Of a DNA stretch of 64,000 bases, positions 33,667 to 40,771 are shown one piece after another; position 1 is the first letter of the stretch, and each line of letters opens with the position of its first letter. Both the position numbers and the translations under genes were made by a program. The notes beneath the pieces were generated by a model, which saw only the letters and a list, made by a program, of their open reading frames with translations, made no database searches and had not been told where the DNA came from. The stretch lies in the NCBI GenBank assembly GCA_903857865.1, contig CAIOGO010000009.1:1-64000 (forward strand). The letters are read 5' to 3'. This stretch comes from an uncultured bacterium. Its GTDB lineage: Bacteria; Bipolaricaulota; Bipolaricaulia; UBA7950; UBA9294.

Positions 33667-36600
33667 CTAGTCCGATGGAAGCACGATGAATGCTCGGCCT
33701 TCCGATCTTCCGAACACCTCTGGAAAGTAGAACTCGCGCGCGATCGCCGGAAGGACCTTGAACTCGCCCGGCTGAACGGCGCGGACCGTGTAGCGGTAGG
33801 TGTAGGTGCCGGCCGGGAGGTAGTCGGCGAACAGCGCCACCTTCTCGTCGCGCAGCTCGCTGCGCGAGTACCAGCGCCACCACCACCAGGGATATCGCAT
33901 CGAGGTCCCGCCCGACGACTCGCGGCGGATGCTCGGCCCGGTTTCCAGAACGCTCGTCGTGTCGAGCGTCGTGTTCACCGCCTCGCAGCCGGCGGGCAGC
34001 GGGTCTTCGACCACGACGTAGTAGAGGTCGTTCGGCGCAATGATCGTCAGGCGCACTTCGTACGTCTCTCCGACCGTCGCTTCTCTCACATCCGGGCATG
34101 TCGCGTCGAGATCGCATCCGCTCGGCGCGTACTGACGCGTGACGATGATCCCGCGCGCCAGGGCGCCCACTTCGTCGGCGGGCAGCTGGAGGTTGAGGTG
34201 GGCGGTGTAGTAGAGGACGCCGGGGCCTTCCTCGCGGAACACGGTGAGCGCGTGCCGATCGCTCGTCGAGAGCTCGCTGCCTGGGACGCTCACCGTGGCT
34301 GAGTCGCGCACCGTCTCCTGGGTTGCGGTGCCTTCGAGTTTCTGAGCCCCATCCCAAAGGACGCCGAACGCGTAGTCCGCGTCGAGTTCGCCCGTTGCGA
34401 CCATCCAGTCCGTCAACGAAACGAGGGCCCACGCGGTCTCCTGCGTCGTCTCCCAGATACCGCTCTTCCGTGCCACCATGAGCCAGCGGACGACGTTCGG
34501 AAGGAGCGCGTTCTTGGGGTCGAGGGCCACGAACGCGTCCAGGATGACGGCCGTCGACCGCGTGTCGGTGTTCATCGCCCACCCGTCGTAGTTCGCCTCC
34601 TCCCAGTGCATGCCGGTCGCGCTCTGGATCGACTCGTTCACCAGGTCGGAGAGGAGCGTGTCGATCTCCGTTCTCGGTCGCCCGAGCCGATCGAGTGCCA
34701 TGGCGAGGAACGCTTTGCCATAGTGACTGAGCTTGGCGCGATGGTCGAACAGCTGGTCGGCATACAGGCCGGCAGGATCGTTCCTTCCGGCGAGCGAGAG
34801 CACGAAGAGTATCCAGGCCTGGCGATTCGCCTCTCGGAAGGTTCCGAGATCCTCCTGCGACACGAGCGTCGACTCGAGACGGCGTGTCGCGCGGTCGAGA
34901 ACCTCGGGCCGCACGAGGATGTCCGCCTCCTGGAGGCGGAGGAGAGCGTAGGTGGCGTAGGCTGTGAGATACGGGCTCGATGCCTCGTCGGCCCACCAGC
35001 CCCAGCCTCCGTCGCCGTTCTGGCGGACGTAGAGCTTCTCGAGGCCCTCGAGTACCAGATCGTGGAGGCGGCTGGCGAGATCCTCATCCTCGATGCCGAG
35101 GAGCGTCAGGGCGCGGTAGGTCAGGACGTTTGGCAGGAATCGGCTTACCACCTGTTCCGTGCACTCGTACTCGAAGTGCTCGAGATAGCTGAGCCCTTCG
35201 GTCATCGCGGCCGCGAGCGAGGCGTCGAGACGCACGTCGAGCCGGCTTGTGTCCGGATCGTAGCTCTCTGGCAGGGCAATCGTCTCCGTGCGGCCGCCGG
35301 CCTTGCGGAGTTCGCCCGCCGTGCCGACGATCTCGGGAGCCGTGTAGCGGTGTACCGGGATCGTCCCCTCGGGCCCCGTCGTGAGTCGAGGCCGCGCGGC
35401 GTCCGACAGATCGCCGGACGTGGCACTCCACGCCACGTCGACGGCCTCCACGTCGAGCACGGTGACCCACCACACGGCCTGACTCTCCGAGCCCGCCAGG
35501 ACGCGAAGCGTCTGGCCCACCGGACCCTCGAGCTCGAGGCCCGCGGAGGCGAGCGTAACGTTGACGTTGAGATTGTCCTGCGTCTGATTGGTCACTGAAG
35601 CAGCCAATCGCACGCGGTCGCCCACGACGAAGAAGCGGGGCGCGACCGGACGCACGAGGAGCGGCTTCGTCACGAGGGTCTCCGTCGTCCCCTCGCCGAC
35701 CTTCGTATCGGTGGTGATGCCGACGGCGCGCACGACCCATGTCGTCAGGTTGTCCGGGAACTTGACGTTCAAGGTGGCGCGGCCGTCGGCGCCGGTGGTC
35801 ACCGTCGGGTTCCAGTAGGCGGTGTCGGCGAACGCCTCGCGCAGAGCCACCCCGGCCGGGAGCTGCGCGGCCGCCGAAGACCGCCCCGCGGCCTCGTCGA
35901 GGCCCGCCGTCGCCATCATCGGCGCGGGCGCCCCGGGCAGGGGGCCACGGCCTTCGGCGGCGACCTTGGTCATGTTCGCTGCGCCCATATCCCGCAGCTG
36001 TTCCAGAACGAGGCGCGACAAGGAGAGCGTGAGGGAACTCGACGTGCCCACACCGAGACCTCGCGGGCCGTAGAACGTCGAAGCGACGCGGTCCGGCTCG
36101 CGCGGGCTCAGGGTGAGAATGGCCTTGTCCACCACGTCGAGGGAGAACTGGCCCTGGACGGGCACTCCCTCCGCGTCCGTCACTGTGAGGGTGTAGCTCG
36201 CCGTCTGGCCGGGCAGGAGGCTCTCCTGCGGGCCTTCGAGCGAAACGTGGAGGAGGCGCGGCTCCGGATCGACGGAGAGGGTCACGTACCCCACCTTCAT
36301 GCTCGCGGTGTCGAGCCCGCCGGCCGCTCGCGCGGCCGTTCGGCCCTGGACAAGGACCACGCTCACGTAGATGTTCGGGACGTGGTCGTCTGTGATAGGG
36401 ATCGGTAGGACCGTGCTGTTCGATGGCAGGTGGAGAACCTGCTGCGACAGCACGCCGCCGCGCTCGACGGTGACGAGAGCCCACTGCTCGCCCGGGTAGG
36501 GACTTGGAACGAGGATCTGAGCCGTCTCCCCGACCTGGTAGGTCGTCTTGTCGCTGATGAGCGTCACCCGGTCGTCGTTGCTGCGGCGCCACGACACGGC

Positions 36601-39600
36601 CTCCGGCCCACTCACCCAAACGAAGACGCTGGTGCGCGTCGTGCGCTCCAACTCATCCAATCCTTCCACGGTGACCTTGTACGACCCGCCGGTCGGCGGC
36701 GTGAACGCGAAGGATCCGTCGCCCCGCTCGTCCGTGACCAGCGATCCGCTGTCGATGTCGATGTCCTCCGTCGTCCACTTCCACGTCCCGCCGCCCGACG
36801 CGTCGGACTCGAACGTGTTCTTCCACTCGCGGCGAACCACCGTGTAGCGTACGGCGCGCCCACTGGCTCGTTCGCCGGCCCAGTCGATCGAGACGGCGTT
36901 CAGCGTCATCGCCCGGCCCGCCTGGCCGATCGTCTGAGCGGCGGCGAGGCCGGCGTAGAACGAGGCTTGGTGGACCACGATCGTGGTGCGTCCGGAGATC
37001 GTGGATCCGTCGCGGCCGTAGGCCGTGGCCTCCACGGTGAGGAGGCGGCTTCCTCGCGCGACTCCGCCTTCGGCCTGCGGATCGCGCGAGGCGATGTCGC
37101 TCGGGAGTTCGATCAACAGAGCGCCCGAGGCGTCAGTTCGGCCGCTGCCATCGAGCACGGGCGTCGGCGGTGTCGGCGTCTGCCACCAGCAGCCGCGGCA
37201 AGTCCAGGGGTCGTCGATGTCGGAGAACGAGTACTGGCTAAACGCCGAGGGGGAGAACGTGTAGGACGACGATAGGACGCGCCACTCCACGCGCGCGTCG
37301 GCCACCGGAGCGCCGAAGAAGTACGACGCCTGAACCACGGCGTGCGCAGGGTCGCCCTTCGCGATTTCGTCTCGGTCAGCGGCGACGGTGACCTCGAACT
37401 CCGGCGCTCGGTACGCGGCGACCTGGAACGCGTGGGACTCCGACCGGTCTCCGACCTCGACGCTTAGCGTGTAGTCGCCGAGCGCCGCGTCGGCTGCGAG
37501 CGCGTGCTCACCGGAGATAGCGCCGAACTCGTCCAGGGCAAGCGTCTGCTCGTAGACCATATTCCAGTTTGCATCCCTGATTTGGACGTGCGCCTCGCGG
37601 ATCGCGGGCAGCGCGTAGTGAGCGTCCGCTTCGTCGCGCAGGAGGGCGCGGAAGTAGACCGTTTGGCCGGCTCGGTAGATGGGGCGATCGGAGTCGAGGT
37701 AGGCGCGGCCGGAAGGAGGCGTCTCGCTAGTGAAGCCGAACTCCCATGGCGTGATTCCGTCGCTCCATTCCGAACTCGAGAAGGCGAACGGGCTCTTCGC
37801 GCTGACCGTGAGGCCACGCCAGTCGAGCGAGGCGGTGCCGGGGAAGCGCGCCAGACCGCGACTGTCGCTGACGTCGACGTCGACCGTCTCCCCGTCTGCG
37901 TTCATGCCCGACAGAATCAGTCCGGCCACCGGCGCGCCGGTCTCGAGATCCGTGGCCCAGACGAGGGTCTCGGCCTCCGACGTCTTCATGACGAGGTGCG
38001 TCGGCGTCGAGATGAGCACGTGACGCCCTTGCCAGCGACTCCACTCCACGCCGTCGGCCTGGAGGTCGATGACGTAGATCCCAGGGGCAAGAGGGCCGCC
38101 GTCCTCGACGAGGTCGATGGGCGTGTAGCCGACCTCGTTCAGCGGGGATGAGACGGCGACGGACCACGTCCGACCGCGGCCACGCGCGGGCGGCGTGAAG
38201 TCGTACCAGTCCCTCATCGCTTCGAAGTACTCGGGGAGGTCCACTTGCGTCAGCGTGAGCGCGAGGCGGCTGGTGTTTCGATACGCGACGACGATGTGCG
38301 CCGGCTCGTAGGAGCTGTAGGTCCCCACGTTCCCGGGAACCTGCAGCCAAGTGGCCGGGTCGAGGGGCGCCGTCGTGAAGCGGACGGCCAGCTCCTGAGT
38401 CGTCTTGTTCCCGTAGGGGTCCTCGATTCCCGGACTGACGCTCACGGTGTACGTTTGGCTCGGCTGCGGAGAGAAGTAGATGACGTAGCGAAGGTCCCAC
38501 GAACTGAAGTAGCCGTACACGTCCTCCGGTTTTGGGGCGGGCTCGATCGTCACGTGCTTGAGGACGGTGCCTTCGTTGACGGGTGCAGTGAACTCGATGA
38601 TGAACGGCGAGTAGGGGTCGGTGTTCGTCTCGCCGGCGCGAGGCGTCGTTCCGAGAATCCGAAGCGTCGGCACAGTTCGGAACCGGAAACGGACGAAGTC
38701 GGTCGTGCCCAGTCCACCCGCCTGTGCGACTACGCCGGGTTCCAGCGTGACGACGTAGTGGCGGTTGAAAGCGAGGGGGGCGGCGGGTTCAAAGACGAGG
38801 TCGTTTCCGTCCGCCGAGAGGGTTCCTTGCACAGGGGAGGTCCAGAGCCCGAAGGCCGAGACCTCTCGCACCGAGAGACGCTTGCGCGCGGACTCCACGC
38901 CGATCGGCATGTTGAACGTCACGCGCAGGGAGTCGATGAGAGAGACCATCTCATCGCCGTCGCGCGGGTTCGTCCACACGACTTCCGGCCGGACGGTCGC
39001 GAAACGCCAGACCACGTCCGAGGCGAGGAGACCGCCGGTCGTGTCGGACAGGCCCGCGCGAACGGTCACGGTGTACTCCGTTCCTCCGAGAAGCGGTTGG
39101 CTCGGGGTGAAGACGTAGATCGAGGTGTTCAGCCACTCTCCCGTGCCCGCGACATCGGGCTCGAAGGCGAGGGGATCGGGCAGGGGGGTTGTTCCCGGCG
39201 CGGACAGGGCCGAGAGCGCGACGACGGGGCGGTTGAACAGAACCGTGATCGAGCTGTCTGCGGCGATGCCGGTCGCGCCGTCGACCGGGACGACTTGCGT
39301 CACGGTGAGGAATCCCACCGTGTGTAGCCGCAACGAGAAGGGGTCTGCAAGCGGGATCGCGTTCCGGTCGCGGGCCGTGGCGGCCACGCTCACGGTGTAG
39401 ACGGCGTCGCGTTCCCAGGGTTGCGACGGGGTGAATTGGATCGTCGCGTCCGACGTCCACTCCCAGCGTCCAGCCGTCTCGGGCGCGATCCCGACGGCGT
39501 CCTCAAGCGAGGCGCGGTCCATCGGTCGGTCGAAGACAAGTCGGATCGCTCCATTGACAGCCAGTTCTTCGCCGCGCGTCGGCGAGGTCTCCACGACTCG

Positions 39601-39726
39601 TGGAGGAGCGATCTCCGCGTTCGTCGCGGAGGATGCAGCGCCCCACGTCGGACACGCTGCCGCAAAGGCAGACACTCCCAAGAGAACGAGGACTCTCAAC
39701 GCCCTTTCCGCCGACCTCATATTCAT
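33667..39726 (-). CDS. Bacterial alpha-2-macroglobulin with thioester
   Basis: 2019 residues. Family members trap attacking proteases through a bait region and a reactive thioester. Signal peptide, then Cys25 in FAAAC; Ala rather than Leu at -3 makes it a poor lipobox. Four Big_5-type Ig-like repeats open the protein (ETSPTRGEELAVNG, VVPVDGATGIAAD, WTNPRDGDEMVS and GTTPRAGETNTD). Macroglobulin domains follow (DSDRPIYRAGQTVYFRALL is the MG2-type core), then the A2M domain and the thioester CTEQ at 1522-1525 (bases 35152-35163) with the alpha/alpha barrel. The C-terminal domain has WWWWRWYSRSELRDEKVALF. It exceeds E. coli YfhM (about 1650 aa). No PBP1C gene is adjacent. Confidence 0.92.
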   Translation of the reverse strand: MNMRSAERALRVLVLLGVSAFAAACPTWGAASSATNAEIAPPRVVETSPTRGEELAVNGAIRLVFDRPMDRASLEDAVGIAPETAGRWEWTSDATIQFTPSQPWERDAVYTVSVAATARDRNAIPLADPFSLRLHTVGFLTVTQVVPVDGATGIAADSSITVLFNRPVVALSALSAPGTTPLPDPLAFEPDVAGTGEWLNTSIYVFTPSQPLLGGTEYTVTVRAGLSDTTGGLLASDVVWRFATVRPEVVWTNPRDGDEMVSLIDSLRVTFNMPIGVESARKRLSVREVSAFGLWTSPVQGTLSADGNDLVFEPAAPLAFNRHYVVTLEPGVVAQAGGLGTTDFVRFRFRTVPTLRILGTTPRAGETNTDPYSPFIIEFTAPVNEGTVLKHVTIEPAPKPEDVYGYFSSWDLRYVIYFSPQPSQTYTVSVSPGIEDPYGNKTTQELAVRFTTAPLDPATWLQVPGNVGTYSSYEPAHIVVAYRNTSRLALTLTQVDLPEYFEAMRDWYDFTPPARGRGRTWSVAVSSPLNEVGYTPIDLVEDGGPLAPGIYVIDLQADGVEWSRWQGRHVLISTPTHLVMKTSEAETLVWATDLETGAPVAGLILSGMNADGETVDVDVSDSRGLARFPGTASLDWRGLTVSAKSPFAFSSSEWSDGITPWEFGFTSETPPSGRAYLDSDRPIYRAGQTVYFRALLRDEADAHYALPAIREAHVQIRDANWNMVYEQTLALDEFGAISGEHALAADAALGDYTLSVEVGDRSESHAFQVAAYRAPEFEVTVAADRDEIAKGDPAHAVVQASYFFGAPVADARVEWRVLSSSYTFSPSAFSQYSFSDIDDPWTCRGCWWQTPTPPTPVLDGSGRTDASGALLIELPSDIASRDPQAEGGVARGSRLLTVEATAYGRDGSTISGRTTIVVHQASFYAGLAAAQTIGQAGRAMTLNAVSIDWAGERASGRAVRYTVVRREWKNTFESDASGGGTWKWTTEDIDIDSGSLVTDERGDGSFAFTPPTGGSYKVTVEGLDELERTTRTSVFVWVSGPEAVSWRRSNDDRVTLISDKTTYQVGETAQILVPSPYPGEQWALVTVERGGVLSQQVLHLPSNSTVLPIPITDDHVPNIYVSVVLVQGRTAARAAGGLDTASMKVGYVTLSVDPEPRLLHVSLEGPQESLLPGQTASYTLTVTDAEGVPVQGQFSLDVVDKAILTLSPREPDRVASTFYGPRGLGVGTSSSLTLSLSRLVLEQLRDMGAANMTKVAAEGRGPLPGAPAPMMATAGLDEAAGRSSAAAQLPAGVALREAFADTAYWNPTVTTGADGRATLNVKFPDNLTTWVVRAVGITTDTKVGEGTTETLVTKPLLVRPVAPRFFVVGDRVRLAASVTNQTQDNLNVNVTLASAGLELEGPVGQTLRVLAGSESQAVWWVTVLDVEAVDVAWSATSGDLSDAARPRLTTGPEGTIPVHRYTAPEIVGTAGELRKAGGRTETIALPESYDPDTSRLDVRLDASLAAAMTEGLSYLEHFEYECTEQVVSRFLPNVLTYRALTLLGIEDEDLASRLHDLVLEGLEKLYVRQNGDGGWGWWADEASSPYLTAYATYALLRLQEADILVRPEVLDRATRRLESTLVSQEDLGTFREANRQAWILFVLSLAGRNDPAGLYADQLFDHRAKLSHYGKAFLAMALDRLGRPRTEIDTLLSDLVNESIQSATGMHWEEANYDGWAMNTDTRSTAVILDAFVALDPKNALLPNVVRWLMVARKSGIWETTQETAWALVSLTDWMVATGELDADYAFGVLWDGAQKLEGTATQETVRDSATVSVPGSELSTSDRHALTVFREEGPGVLYYTAHLNLQLPADEVGALARGIIVTRQYAPSGCDLDATCPDVREATVGETYEVRLTIIAPNDLYYVVVEDPLPAGCEAVNTTLDTTSVLETGPSIRRESSGGTSMRYPWWWWRWYSRSELRDEKVALFADYLPAGTYTYRYTVRAVQPGEFKVLPAIAREFYFPEVFGRSEGRAFIVLPSD

Positions 39727-40059
39727 GACTGCCCCCTAGTGGTTGTGTCGCGTCGTATGGTTCGTGCCACTGTGGTCCATTCCCGTGACCCCGTCAACCC
39801 GCCTGTAGCATACCCAACACCGCCGCCCCCTCCGTCGTTTCGTTCCCGCCGAGGCAGAGAGACTCGAGGGTGCGGGGAGGCGCAAGAGCAGCAGCCGGCG
39901 GATGTCTAACAGTAGGGTGTGGGTGGCACAATCAGGTCGTTGTTCCTTGACAAGTGAACAGAGACAGACCGAAACCCGCAGTGCGGGTGTTTGAACCTCG
40001 ATCTGAAGATTGCGGCGGGTGGTCCGCCGCAATGCACAAGTCCTCATTCGAAGTATCTA
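39727..40059. other. Long noncoding leader region with two perfect hairpins
   Basis: This stretch precedes the riboswitch. ACCCGC/GCGGGT (39974-39988) forms a 6-bp stem with an AGT loop. ATTGCGGCGG (40009-40018) and CCGCCGCAAT (40024-40033) form a perfect 10-bp stem with loop GTGGT. TTGACA at 39947-39952 is a perfect -35, but no acceptable -10 lies 16-18 nt downstream, so the transcription start is not fixed. The left part (39727-39940) shows nothing recognisable beyond the minus-strand promoter region of the macroglobulin gene. Confidence 0.45.
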
Positions 40060-40151
40060 CCAAAGGCAAACCAACCGAAAGGATGGGACGCAAAGCTACG
40101 GACCTTCTAGGCAGCTCTGCGTCGGCTCTCAAGGCCGGCGCGAACTCTTGA
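40060..40151 (+). ncRNA. Upstream GEMM-I-like element, 5' half conserved, 3' half divergent
   Basis: AGGCAAACC at 40064-40072, a GAAA-capped hairpin at 40071-40086 and GGGACGCAAAGC at 40085-40096 with ACGGAC after it match the first half of the c-di-GMP-I (GEMM) consensus and the second copy 90 nt downstream. The closing GGGTTGCC strand expected at the 3' end is missing. Instead TCTCAAG (40127-40133) pairs with CTTGAGA (40147-40153), linking it to the next aptamer. It may be a decayed or variant aptamer in a tandem arrangement. Confidence 0.55.
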
Positions 40152-40239
40152 GAAACGCAAACCAGGGGAAACCCTGGGACGCAAAGCCACGGACCCTCAG
40201 GCGACCGAAAGGCCGCCGGGTAGCCGGGTTGCCGCAGCG
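40152..40239 (+). ncRNA. Cyclic-di-GMP-I riboswitch aptamer (GEMM-I)
   Basis: All conserved GEMM-I blocks are in order: ACGCAAACC (40155-40163), a hairpin capped by GGAAAC, GGGACGCAAAGCCACGGA (40176-40193), a second hairpin with a GAAA loop (40202-40215), and AGCCGGGTTGCC (40222-40233), which closes P1 with GCAAACC. The base just 5' of CAAACC is G, as in c-di-GMP-binding members; cGAMP-selective GEMM-Ib members have A there. It lies 62 nt before the start codon of a secreted protein gene. Known family function: binds c-di-GMP and controls surface and motility genes. Confidence 0.9.
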
Positions 40240-40291
40240 CCTAATGGTGGCCGAGCCGCTAGATGCGCTCGAACAAACAACCATTAGGAGG
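40240..40291 (+). promoter_or_regulatory. Riboswitch expression platform: stem sequestering the Shine-Dalgarno
   Basis: CCTAATGGT (40240-40248) is perfectly complementary to ACCATTAGG (40280-40288). The right arm overlaps the ribosome-binding site AGGAGG (40286-40291), which lies 9 nt before ATG 40301. An inner GAGC/GCTC pair lies in the loop. The left arm begins directly after the P1 strand of the aptamer, so ligand binding could decide whether this stem forms. It points to translational rather than terminator control. On or off direction cannot be told by eye. Confidence 0.7.
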
Positions 40292-40300
40292 TGCTTTGTA

Positions 40301-40771
40301 ATGAGGATGCTTAAGGTAGTGGGTATGGCGATGTTGGTGGCGGCGATGGTCGTTGGCATGGCAGCGGTTTCGTTCGCGGCGTCTTCGGCAGTGTCCGCGA
40401 ACGCCTCGTTCTCGATTCCGTCGTGGATCTCTCTCTCCATCGTCGGCAACGGCGACGTGAGCTTCGCGAGCATCACCGGCCCTGGGACGTACAACGGCTC
40501 GAACGGCACCCAGCTTCGCGTGCTGAGCACGGCGAACTGGTCACTGTCGAACACGATTCTCTGGGCGAGCCCGAGCTCGAAGATGCCTGTTGGCGCGAGC
40601 CAGGCCACGATTGACGCGAGTCTCCAGCGGACGTTCGACAAGACGTCCGGGGCCTGGGGTAGTCAGACGGTGAACGTCTCCTACAGGCTCGTCCTCACGA
40701 GCGACGACCTGGCGACCCTGCCGCAGGGCGACTACAGCTTGGTCGTCCAGTACACGGCGACGACGAACTAG
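40301..40771 (+). CDS. Small secreted beta-sandwich-like protein under c-di-GMP riboswitch control
   Basis: 156 residues from ATG 40301; longer in-frame starts upstream lie inside the riboswitch and are not credible. The signal peptide (MRMLKVVGMAMLVAAMVVGM to AAVSFA, cut before SS) leaves about 130 residues. The mature chain alternates strands and ends with LPQGDYSLVVQYTATTN, a pattern common in pilin-, coat- and WxL-like structural proteins; I cannot assign a family. It has no cysteines and no sorting signal. c-di-GMP control suggests a surface or biofilm role. Terminator-like stems follow at 40807 and 40963. Confidence 0.8.
   Translation: MRMLKVVGMAMLVAAMVVGMAAVSFAASSAVSANASFSIPSWISLSIVGNGDVSFASITGPGTYNGSNGTQLRVLSTANWSLSNTILWASPSSKMPVGASQATIDASLQRTFDKTSGAWGSQTVNVSYRLVLTSDDLATLPQGDYSLVVQYTATTN

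Follow-up and report, generated by a model that had tools for sequence, protein, structure and literature searches.

The question raised by this locus is how a riboswitch leader could control the translation of a gene for a small exported protein, and which parts of the leader would do so. The window, by which we mean the whole analysed stretch of 64 kb, was described in a first-pass annotation as carrying a single complete c-di-GMP-I (GEMM-I) aptamer at 40152-40239, followed by a hairpin platform that sequesters the Shine-Dalgarno (SD) sequence. Absent from that description were a second aptamer, with its 5' half starting at 40053, and an 18-bp complementarity between 40041-40058 and 40289-40307. 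In our reading, the leader at 40041-40307 is very probably a translational riboswitch made of two nested GEMM-I aptamers, in which an outer c-di-GMP-I aptamer would switch expression ON and the inner, previously reported aptamer would help (Table 1). The genome (2.24 Mb in 22 contigs) can be assigned to Candidatus Bipolaricaulota from the named closest relatives of the encoded protein, in agreement with the poorly studied lineage suspected at first; to our knowledge, this phylum has no cultured experimental models.

Table 1. Features of the putative nested leader and its gene (positions in the window)
Feature	Position	Strand	Basis or remark
Conserved stem-loop TTGCGGCGG..CCGCCGCAA	40010..40032	+	5' side of leader; compensated changes in most f1 leaders
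RBS-burying strand UCCUCAUUCGAAGUAUCU	40041..40058	+	3' part is outer P1 5' strand; P1 extension 40047-40051
Outer aptamer, P1 5' strand GUAUCUA	40053..40059	+	Pairs with 40260-40266; 100% of cells, compensatory changes
Outer aptamer, core (J1/2, P2, P3 5' strand)	40060..40104	+	RF01051 match, contact residues; G20 = 40065, A47 = 40092
Outer aptamer, P3b 5' strand UAGGC	40108..40112	+	G-C/A-U covariation with 40239-40243
Inner GEMM-I aptamer, in outer P3 loop	40147..40237	+	RF03167 64 bits, RF01051 67.1 bits; C20 = 40156, A47 = 40183
Switching strand GCCUAAUGGU	40239..40248	+	Proposed bound: outer P3b/P3 3' strand; free: anti-SD-flank (40240-40248)
Outer aptamer, 3' strand of P3, followed by C92 (40259)	40246..40259	+	Rfam aligns equivalent 3' half in L053, L055; model R1
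Proposed ligand-free hairpin GAGC..GCUC, competitor of outer P1/P3	40253..40270	+	C-G/U-A covariation, columns 385/396
Outer aptamer, P1 3' strand UAGAUGC	40260..40266	+	Alignment pairing; extension UCGAA 40269-40273
SD flank ACCAUUAGG and SD AGGAGG (40286-40291)	40280..40291	+	Sequence; covarying helix
RBS/start stretch AGGUGCUUUGUAAUGAGGA	40289..40307	+	Partner of 40041-40058
Gene for 156-aa exported beta-sandwich protein (predicted)	40301..40771	+	Alignment; AlphaFold2 pLDDT 85.6; weak donor-strand pilin matches

The aptamer reported first holds up as a fold. The covariance-model check of the 40152 element gives a match at 40147-40237 that exceeds the gathering thresholds of both RF01051 (67.1 against 35 bits) and RF03167 (64 against 59 bits, E 8.2e-13). 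The claim that every conserved block is present does not extend to position 20 (positions 20, 47 and 92 being numbered after the Vc2 aptamer), where a C at 40156 (AAACGCAAACC) stands and the G contacting c-di-GMP is absent. Rfam clan competition files this stretch under RF03167 (c-di-GMP-I-GGC) despite the missing hallmark of that family, a G for A47 (GACGCGAA in the family consensus); both aptamers of the window have GACGCAAA. Automatic annotation will therefore mislabel such aptamers. We regard 40147-40237 as an aptamer of GEMM-I fold whose ligand is uncertain and should not be presumed to be c-di-GMP, because C20 replaces G20 at a ligand-contact position.

Seven GEMM-I matches are present in the genome itself, and some are found in 32 of the 33 genomes of its family. 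Relatives of the window protein occur in nine genomes of the family, the full-length ones directly behind GEMM-I aptamers. Pairs of GEMM 5' halves separated by 25-55 nt were sought in 100 genomes of the phylum, and 26 loci in 22 genomes matched this pattern. Together with one locus from a relaxed pattern, and after removal of two cut by contig ends, this left 25 complete nested leaders, distributed over 20 Bipolaricaulota genomes from two families and preceding genes for short exported beta-proteins.

A direct Rfam scan detects the outer aptamer only as an RF01051 match at 40055-40133 (41.2 bits), composed of the 5' half and a poor local 3' half. Such a match could be read as the upstream member of a side-by-side tandem, completed by a degenerate 3' half at about 40113-40133, with each aptamer working independently. 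Rfam indeed puts a local 3' half there, in another leader with a higher score (L045, 54.1 bits), and c-di-GMP-I doublets are common, 347 being counted in a published survey (PMC9481103). We nevertheless consider a tandem highly improbable. In most relatives the upstream match is a 5' half whose 3' part is skipped or truncated (38-42 bits, 49-78 nt), and the local stretch, which was rejected as a 3' half, has by eye neither C92 nor P1 pairing. Both are present in all 25 leaders in a distal 3' half located beyond the inner aptamer (GGUGGCCGAGCCGCUAGAUGC, 40246-40266), which holds the P3 3' strand, C92 and the P1 3' strand. Moreover, the shared platform serves only the outer P1 and P3. Instead of two complete consecutive aptamers, comparison of the sequences thus displays a nested anatomy, in which a second GEMM-I aptamer of the c-di-GMP-I class, split into two halves (40053-40104 and 40246-40266), encloses the reported one in its P3 loop.

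Several lines of evidence recover the complete P1-P2-P3 fold of this outer aptamer. In the alignment of the 25 leaders, every cell of outer P1 (100%) is paired, U-A being replaced by C-G in places, and P3b shows G-C to A-U changes; for the outer helices, 93.8% of cells are paired, as opposed to 20-35% after sliding the partner strand. A point against it is that in outer P3, A39-U is replaced by A-C in 19 of the 25 leaders. From the excised outer halves, with the inner aptamer removed, RNAalifold recovers the GEMM-I fold, in which seven pairs are doubly changed, and a covariance model built from these halves only matches, end to end, two contiguous single aptamers located ahead of homologous genes, L053 (97.1 bits) and L055 (77.7 bits), in which Rfam aligns the equivalent 3' half. 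L053 lies in the genome of the window (contig C20:204517-205110; C20:205005) and belongs to a paralogue of the window gene, 68% identical, with the outer aptamer alone; a plain hairpin at the position of the inner aptamer makes it a natural deletion control.

Strands of the outer aptamer also find partners around the start of the gene. Helix (a) joins 40041-40058 to 40289-40307, comprising the remainder of the SD, the spacer, the AUG and codons 2-3, by 18 bp with one bulge. In a scan of the 64 kb, none of 21,328 scan windows reached its energy of -23.1 kcal/mol, which includes a flanking base. A similar duplex is found in all 25 nested leaders and in both single-aptamer leaders, and codon 2 is AGG in every one of these leaders, a codon that accounts for 4.5% of Arg codons in nearby genes. 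Helix (b) is the pairing noticed at the outset, between CCTAATGGT (40240-40248) and its exact complement ACCATTAGG (40280-40288), which overlaps AGGAGG. The complementarity was confirmed, and its nine nucleotides are not a chance match because a version of it recurs in 25 of 25 leaders with compensating changes (the second family has, for example, GCCUAUUGGUGG:CCACCAAUAGGC); in members of f3, the anti-SD helix ends short of the SD. Helix (c) is a small hairpin that covaries between GAGC..GCUC and GAGU..ACUC.

What did not survive is the role given to 40240-40248 as the main sequestering strand, since the main RBS-burying strand would be the 5' strand of outer P1, and the separate hairpin platform, since the anti-SD strand forms part of the P3 stem of the enclosing aptamer. 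It would be extremely unlikely that a single c-di-GMP-I aptamer at 40152-40239 operates with the SD-sequestering hairpin and that the upstream match is irrelevant, even if the score of that aptamer is well above gathering and the 9-nt anti-SD is perfect. The homologues L053 and L055 retain the outer aptamer without the inner one, the outer halves covary across 25 leaders, and the reported aptamer has no base in common with the anti-SD hairpin, which leaves no obvious route to switching.

Helix (a) takes the 5' strand of outer P1 and helix (b) the 3' strand of outer P3/P3b, and a complete outer aptamer consequently excludes both. Comparison of the leaders shows these competing folds and their tie to one family of exported proteins; the ON direction and the coupling of the inner to the outer aptamer are inferred. 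In the absence of ligand, the outer P1 5' strand and the preceding UCCUCA would pair with the SD, spacer and start codon, and CCUAAUGGU would pair with the SD flank, burying the ribosome-binding site. Upon ligand binding, the outer aptamer would take both strands for P1, P3 and P3b and set the ribosome-binding site free. The folded inner aptamer would close the gap of about 130 nt between the outer halves and in this way favour the outer aptamer, with P3b in particular; by inference, this is the simplest role for it. If it binds c-di-GMP, a cooperative response would be expected.

Computed ensembles, when left unconstrained, correspond to the buried state, with SD accessibility of 0.01-0.10 in 21 f1 leaders and 0.43 in f3. 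Forcing the outer aptamer raises the SD accessibility of the window from 0.01 to 0.53, and the remaining members of its family reach 0.38-0.63, which favours an ON switch. With the bound fold imposed on the window, AUG accessibility is 0.10, the start codon being still mostly paired with UCCUCA, and the buried fold is lower in computed free energy by about 5-26 kcal/mol, ligands and tertiary contacts being uncounted. Duplex energies barely discriminate cognate from non-cognate RBS and anti-SD helices within f1, because those strands are nearly invariant; only some f1/f3 swaps are weaker.

The same nested RNA could alternatively act as an OFF switch, if UCCUCA were free to clamp the start codon once the outer aptamer is bound, and if the ligand-free hairpin left AGGUG usable. 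The bound fold allows UCCUCA:UGAGGA beside extended P1 (0.94 for the window), and the anti-SD helix ends before AGGUG. However, the ligand-free ensemble also binds AGGUG and the AUG through the outer P1 5' strand, and formation of the outer aptamer removes this strand, raising SD accessibility in every f1 leader. We find an OFF switch unlikely, yet some weight is kept on it and on kinetic control because the start codon is partly paired and the energy gap is large; the switch itself may be kinetic. A pairing of CCUC with GAGG of the SD, which would go with ligand-OFF, was tried and rejected: once the start codon is taken into account, the partner of CCUCA is UGAGGA, and the longer duplex of the P1 5' strand favours ON.

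In regard to the ligands, G21, A47 and C92 are kept in all 25 leaders, in inner and outer aptamers alike, and among the contacts G20, G21, A47 and C92 only position 20 varies. Five leaders of genus g9 have A20 in the outer aptamer, and the window and G004 have C20 in the inner one; the other complete leaders have G in both. The G003 leader, truncated by a contig end, also has inner C20, which thus occurs in three genomes of the genus. The outer aptamer of the window probably binds c-di-GMP, since G20, A47 and C92 are all intact. Of the c-di-GMP-dependent translation originally proposed, SD sequestration and a surface or matrix protein find comparative support, whereas c-di-GMP as the ligand of the reported aptamer is put in doubt by C20. 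The G20A mutant of GEMM-I binds cGAMP (PMC7288161), and A20 marks cGAMP-type variants, with a Desulfobacca example (PMC9481103). This mark is missing from the window (outer G, inner C), and only the outer aptamers of the five g9 leaders carry it, which makes them putatively cGAMP-like. No Hypr GGDEF, the cGAMP maker, was found in G000, G016, G018 and G019, where all non-degenerate GGDEF domains are canonical GHxxGD.

The inner aptamer is complete and present in both families, but absent (lost or never gained) from L053 and L055, and is, as far as these leaders tell, evolutionarily dispensable. In the genus of the window it may be a ghost aptamer, or may sense something else. That C20 abolishes ligand binding and the inner aptamer only props the outer P3 stem is a real, if less probable, option: three genomes of the genus have C20, a plain hairpin takes the place of the inner aptamer in the single-aptamer paralogue L053, and ghost aptamers are known among glycine riboswitches (PMC9481103). 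On the other hand, a mere prop would not need A47, C92, G21 and the remaining core, all of which are kept, and the inner aptamer scores 67 bits. It is also conceivable, although rather unlikely, that each of the two nested aptamers senses a cyclic dinucleotide of its own, the pair forming a single-platform logic gate, with outer c-di-GMP and a new specificity of inner C20 in the genus of the window, and an outer cGAMP-type A20 aptamer around an inner c-di-GMP aptamer in g9.

In g9 (L124 in G016:C1, L125-L127), two adjacent genes each have a nested leader; in G017, G018 and G019 the outer position 20 is A in one leader and G in the other, and in G016 it is A in both. A GEMM-I aptamer with A20 (cGAMP-like) is also present in the genome of the window, ahead of a 109-aa protein (L005 1501-1598; C4:2003-2100, minus strand), and another aptamer, about 400 bp beyond it (C4:1533-1607), lies ahead of a secreted PKD-type protein.

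Neither the GEMM aptamer class nor its use in ON control or in the regulation of surface proteins is new. With c-di-GMP-I aptamers (RF01051, clan CL00126) both aptamers of the window share the P1-P2-P3 fold, the P2 tetraloop, A47 and C92, and the outer one G20; the differences are the insertion of one aptamer into the P3 loop of the other and the inner C20 in this genus. Tandem c-di-GMP-I riboswitches, such as Bc3-5 of B. thuringiensis (PMC4759541), likewise have two GEMM-I aptamers per leader, but in these sources, the 2022 survey with its hundreds of doublets (PMC9481103) included, they are complete riboswitches side by side with several platforms, in contrast to the single translational platform proposed here. 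The cGAMP (GEMM-Ib) riboswitches, e.g., pilM (PMC9262584), are also ON switches in which an aptamer strand and a repressing fold are mutually exclusive; pilM acts on transcription, and its A20 is shared by the outer aptamer of the five g9 leaders, not by the window. Tandem glycine riboswitches combine two like aptamers with one platform and proposed cooperativity, as here, but the aptamers are consecutive and differ in ligand and fold.

We found no description of nested riboswitches or aptamers in the open-access literature, and in the consulted part of the 2022 survey (PMC9481103) nested GEMM-I aptamers with one platform are not described and the word "nested" is absent. The placement of one GEMM-I aptamer within the P3 loop of a second, with one platform, therefore appears to be new with respect to the open-access literature. 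Known multi-aptamer riboswitches are aptamers in succession, and an aptamer within an aptamer with one shared switch strand would provide cooperativity or two-input RNA logic with a direct physical basis. The 25 natural variants with differing combinations at position 20 make the design testable at once. Under standard annotation with covariance models, such an element is mistaken for two neighbours or for one aptamer.

The controlled gene was correctly recognized as encoding a 156-aa exported, beta-rich protein of no known family: a signal peptide is evident by eye, and searches of Pfam, NCBIfam and PDB sequences were negative for the window protein, with weak DUF4402 matches in four of its 29 relatives. 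The relatives align over one domain, and most are encoded under nested leaders. The AlphaFold2 monomer model (pLDDT 85.6) is a beta-sandwich with an extended N-terminal segment, and its structural neighbours include many donor-strand pilins, TLP-1 and TasA, at Z 5.6-7.5 (<8) and Foldseek E >0.01. The window protein is probably a surface fibre subunit, possibly of the donor-strand type, in which an incomplete Ig fold is completed by the N-terminal strand of a neighbour. TasA, chaperone-usher-type pilins and TLP-1 (9IKJ, 9IKK) are secreted beta-sandwich proteins of similar size with an extended N-terminal segment, but no sequence relation to them was found, and Z <8 may mean a common fold only. 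The nested leader would in this way tie c-di-GMP-type signalling to a probable surface-fibre protein family in Bipolaricaulota.

In one locus (G007:C84:394941-401862; L054/L049/L061), two nested-leader genes flank a gene for a larger secreted protein (about 300 aa), which is related to the window protein through its C-terminal domain. The conserved stem-loop at 40010-40032, immediately ahead of the riboswitch, has no T run and is therefore not an intrinsic terminator. Farther upstream, about 300 bp from the leader and divergent from the riboswitch gene, 33667-39726 encodes a bacterial alpha-2-macroglobulin of 2019 aa with four Big_5 stretches.
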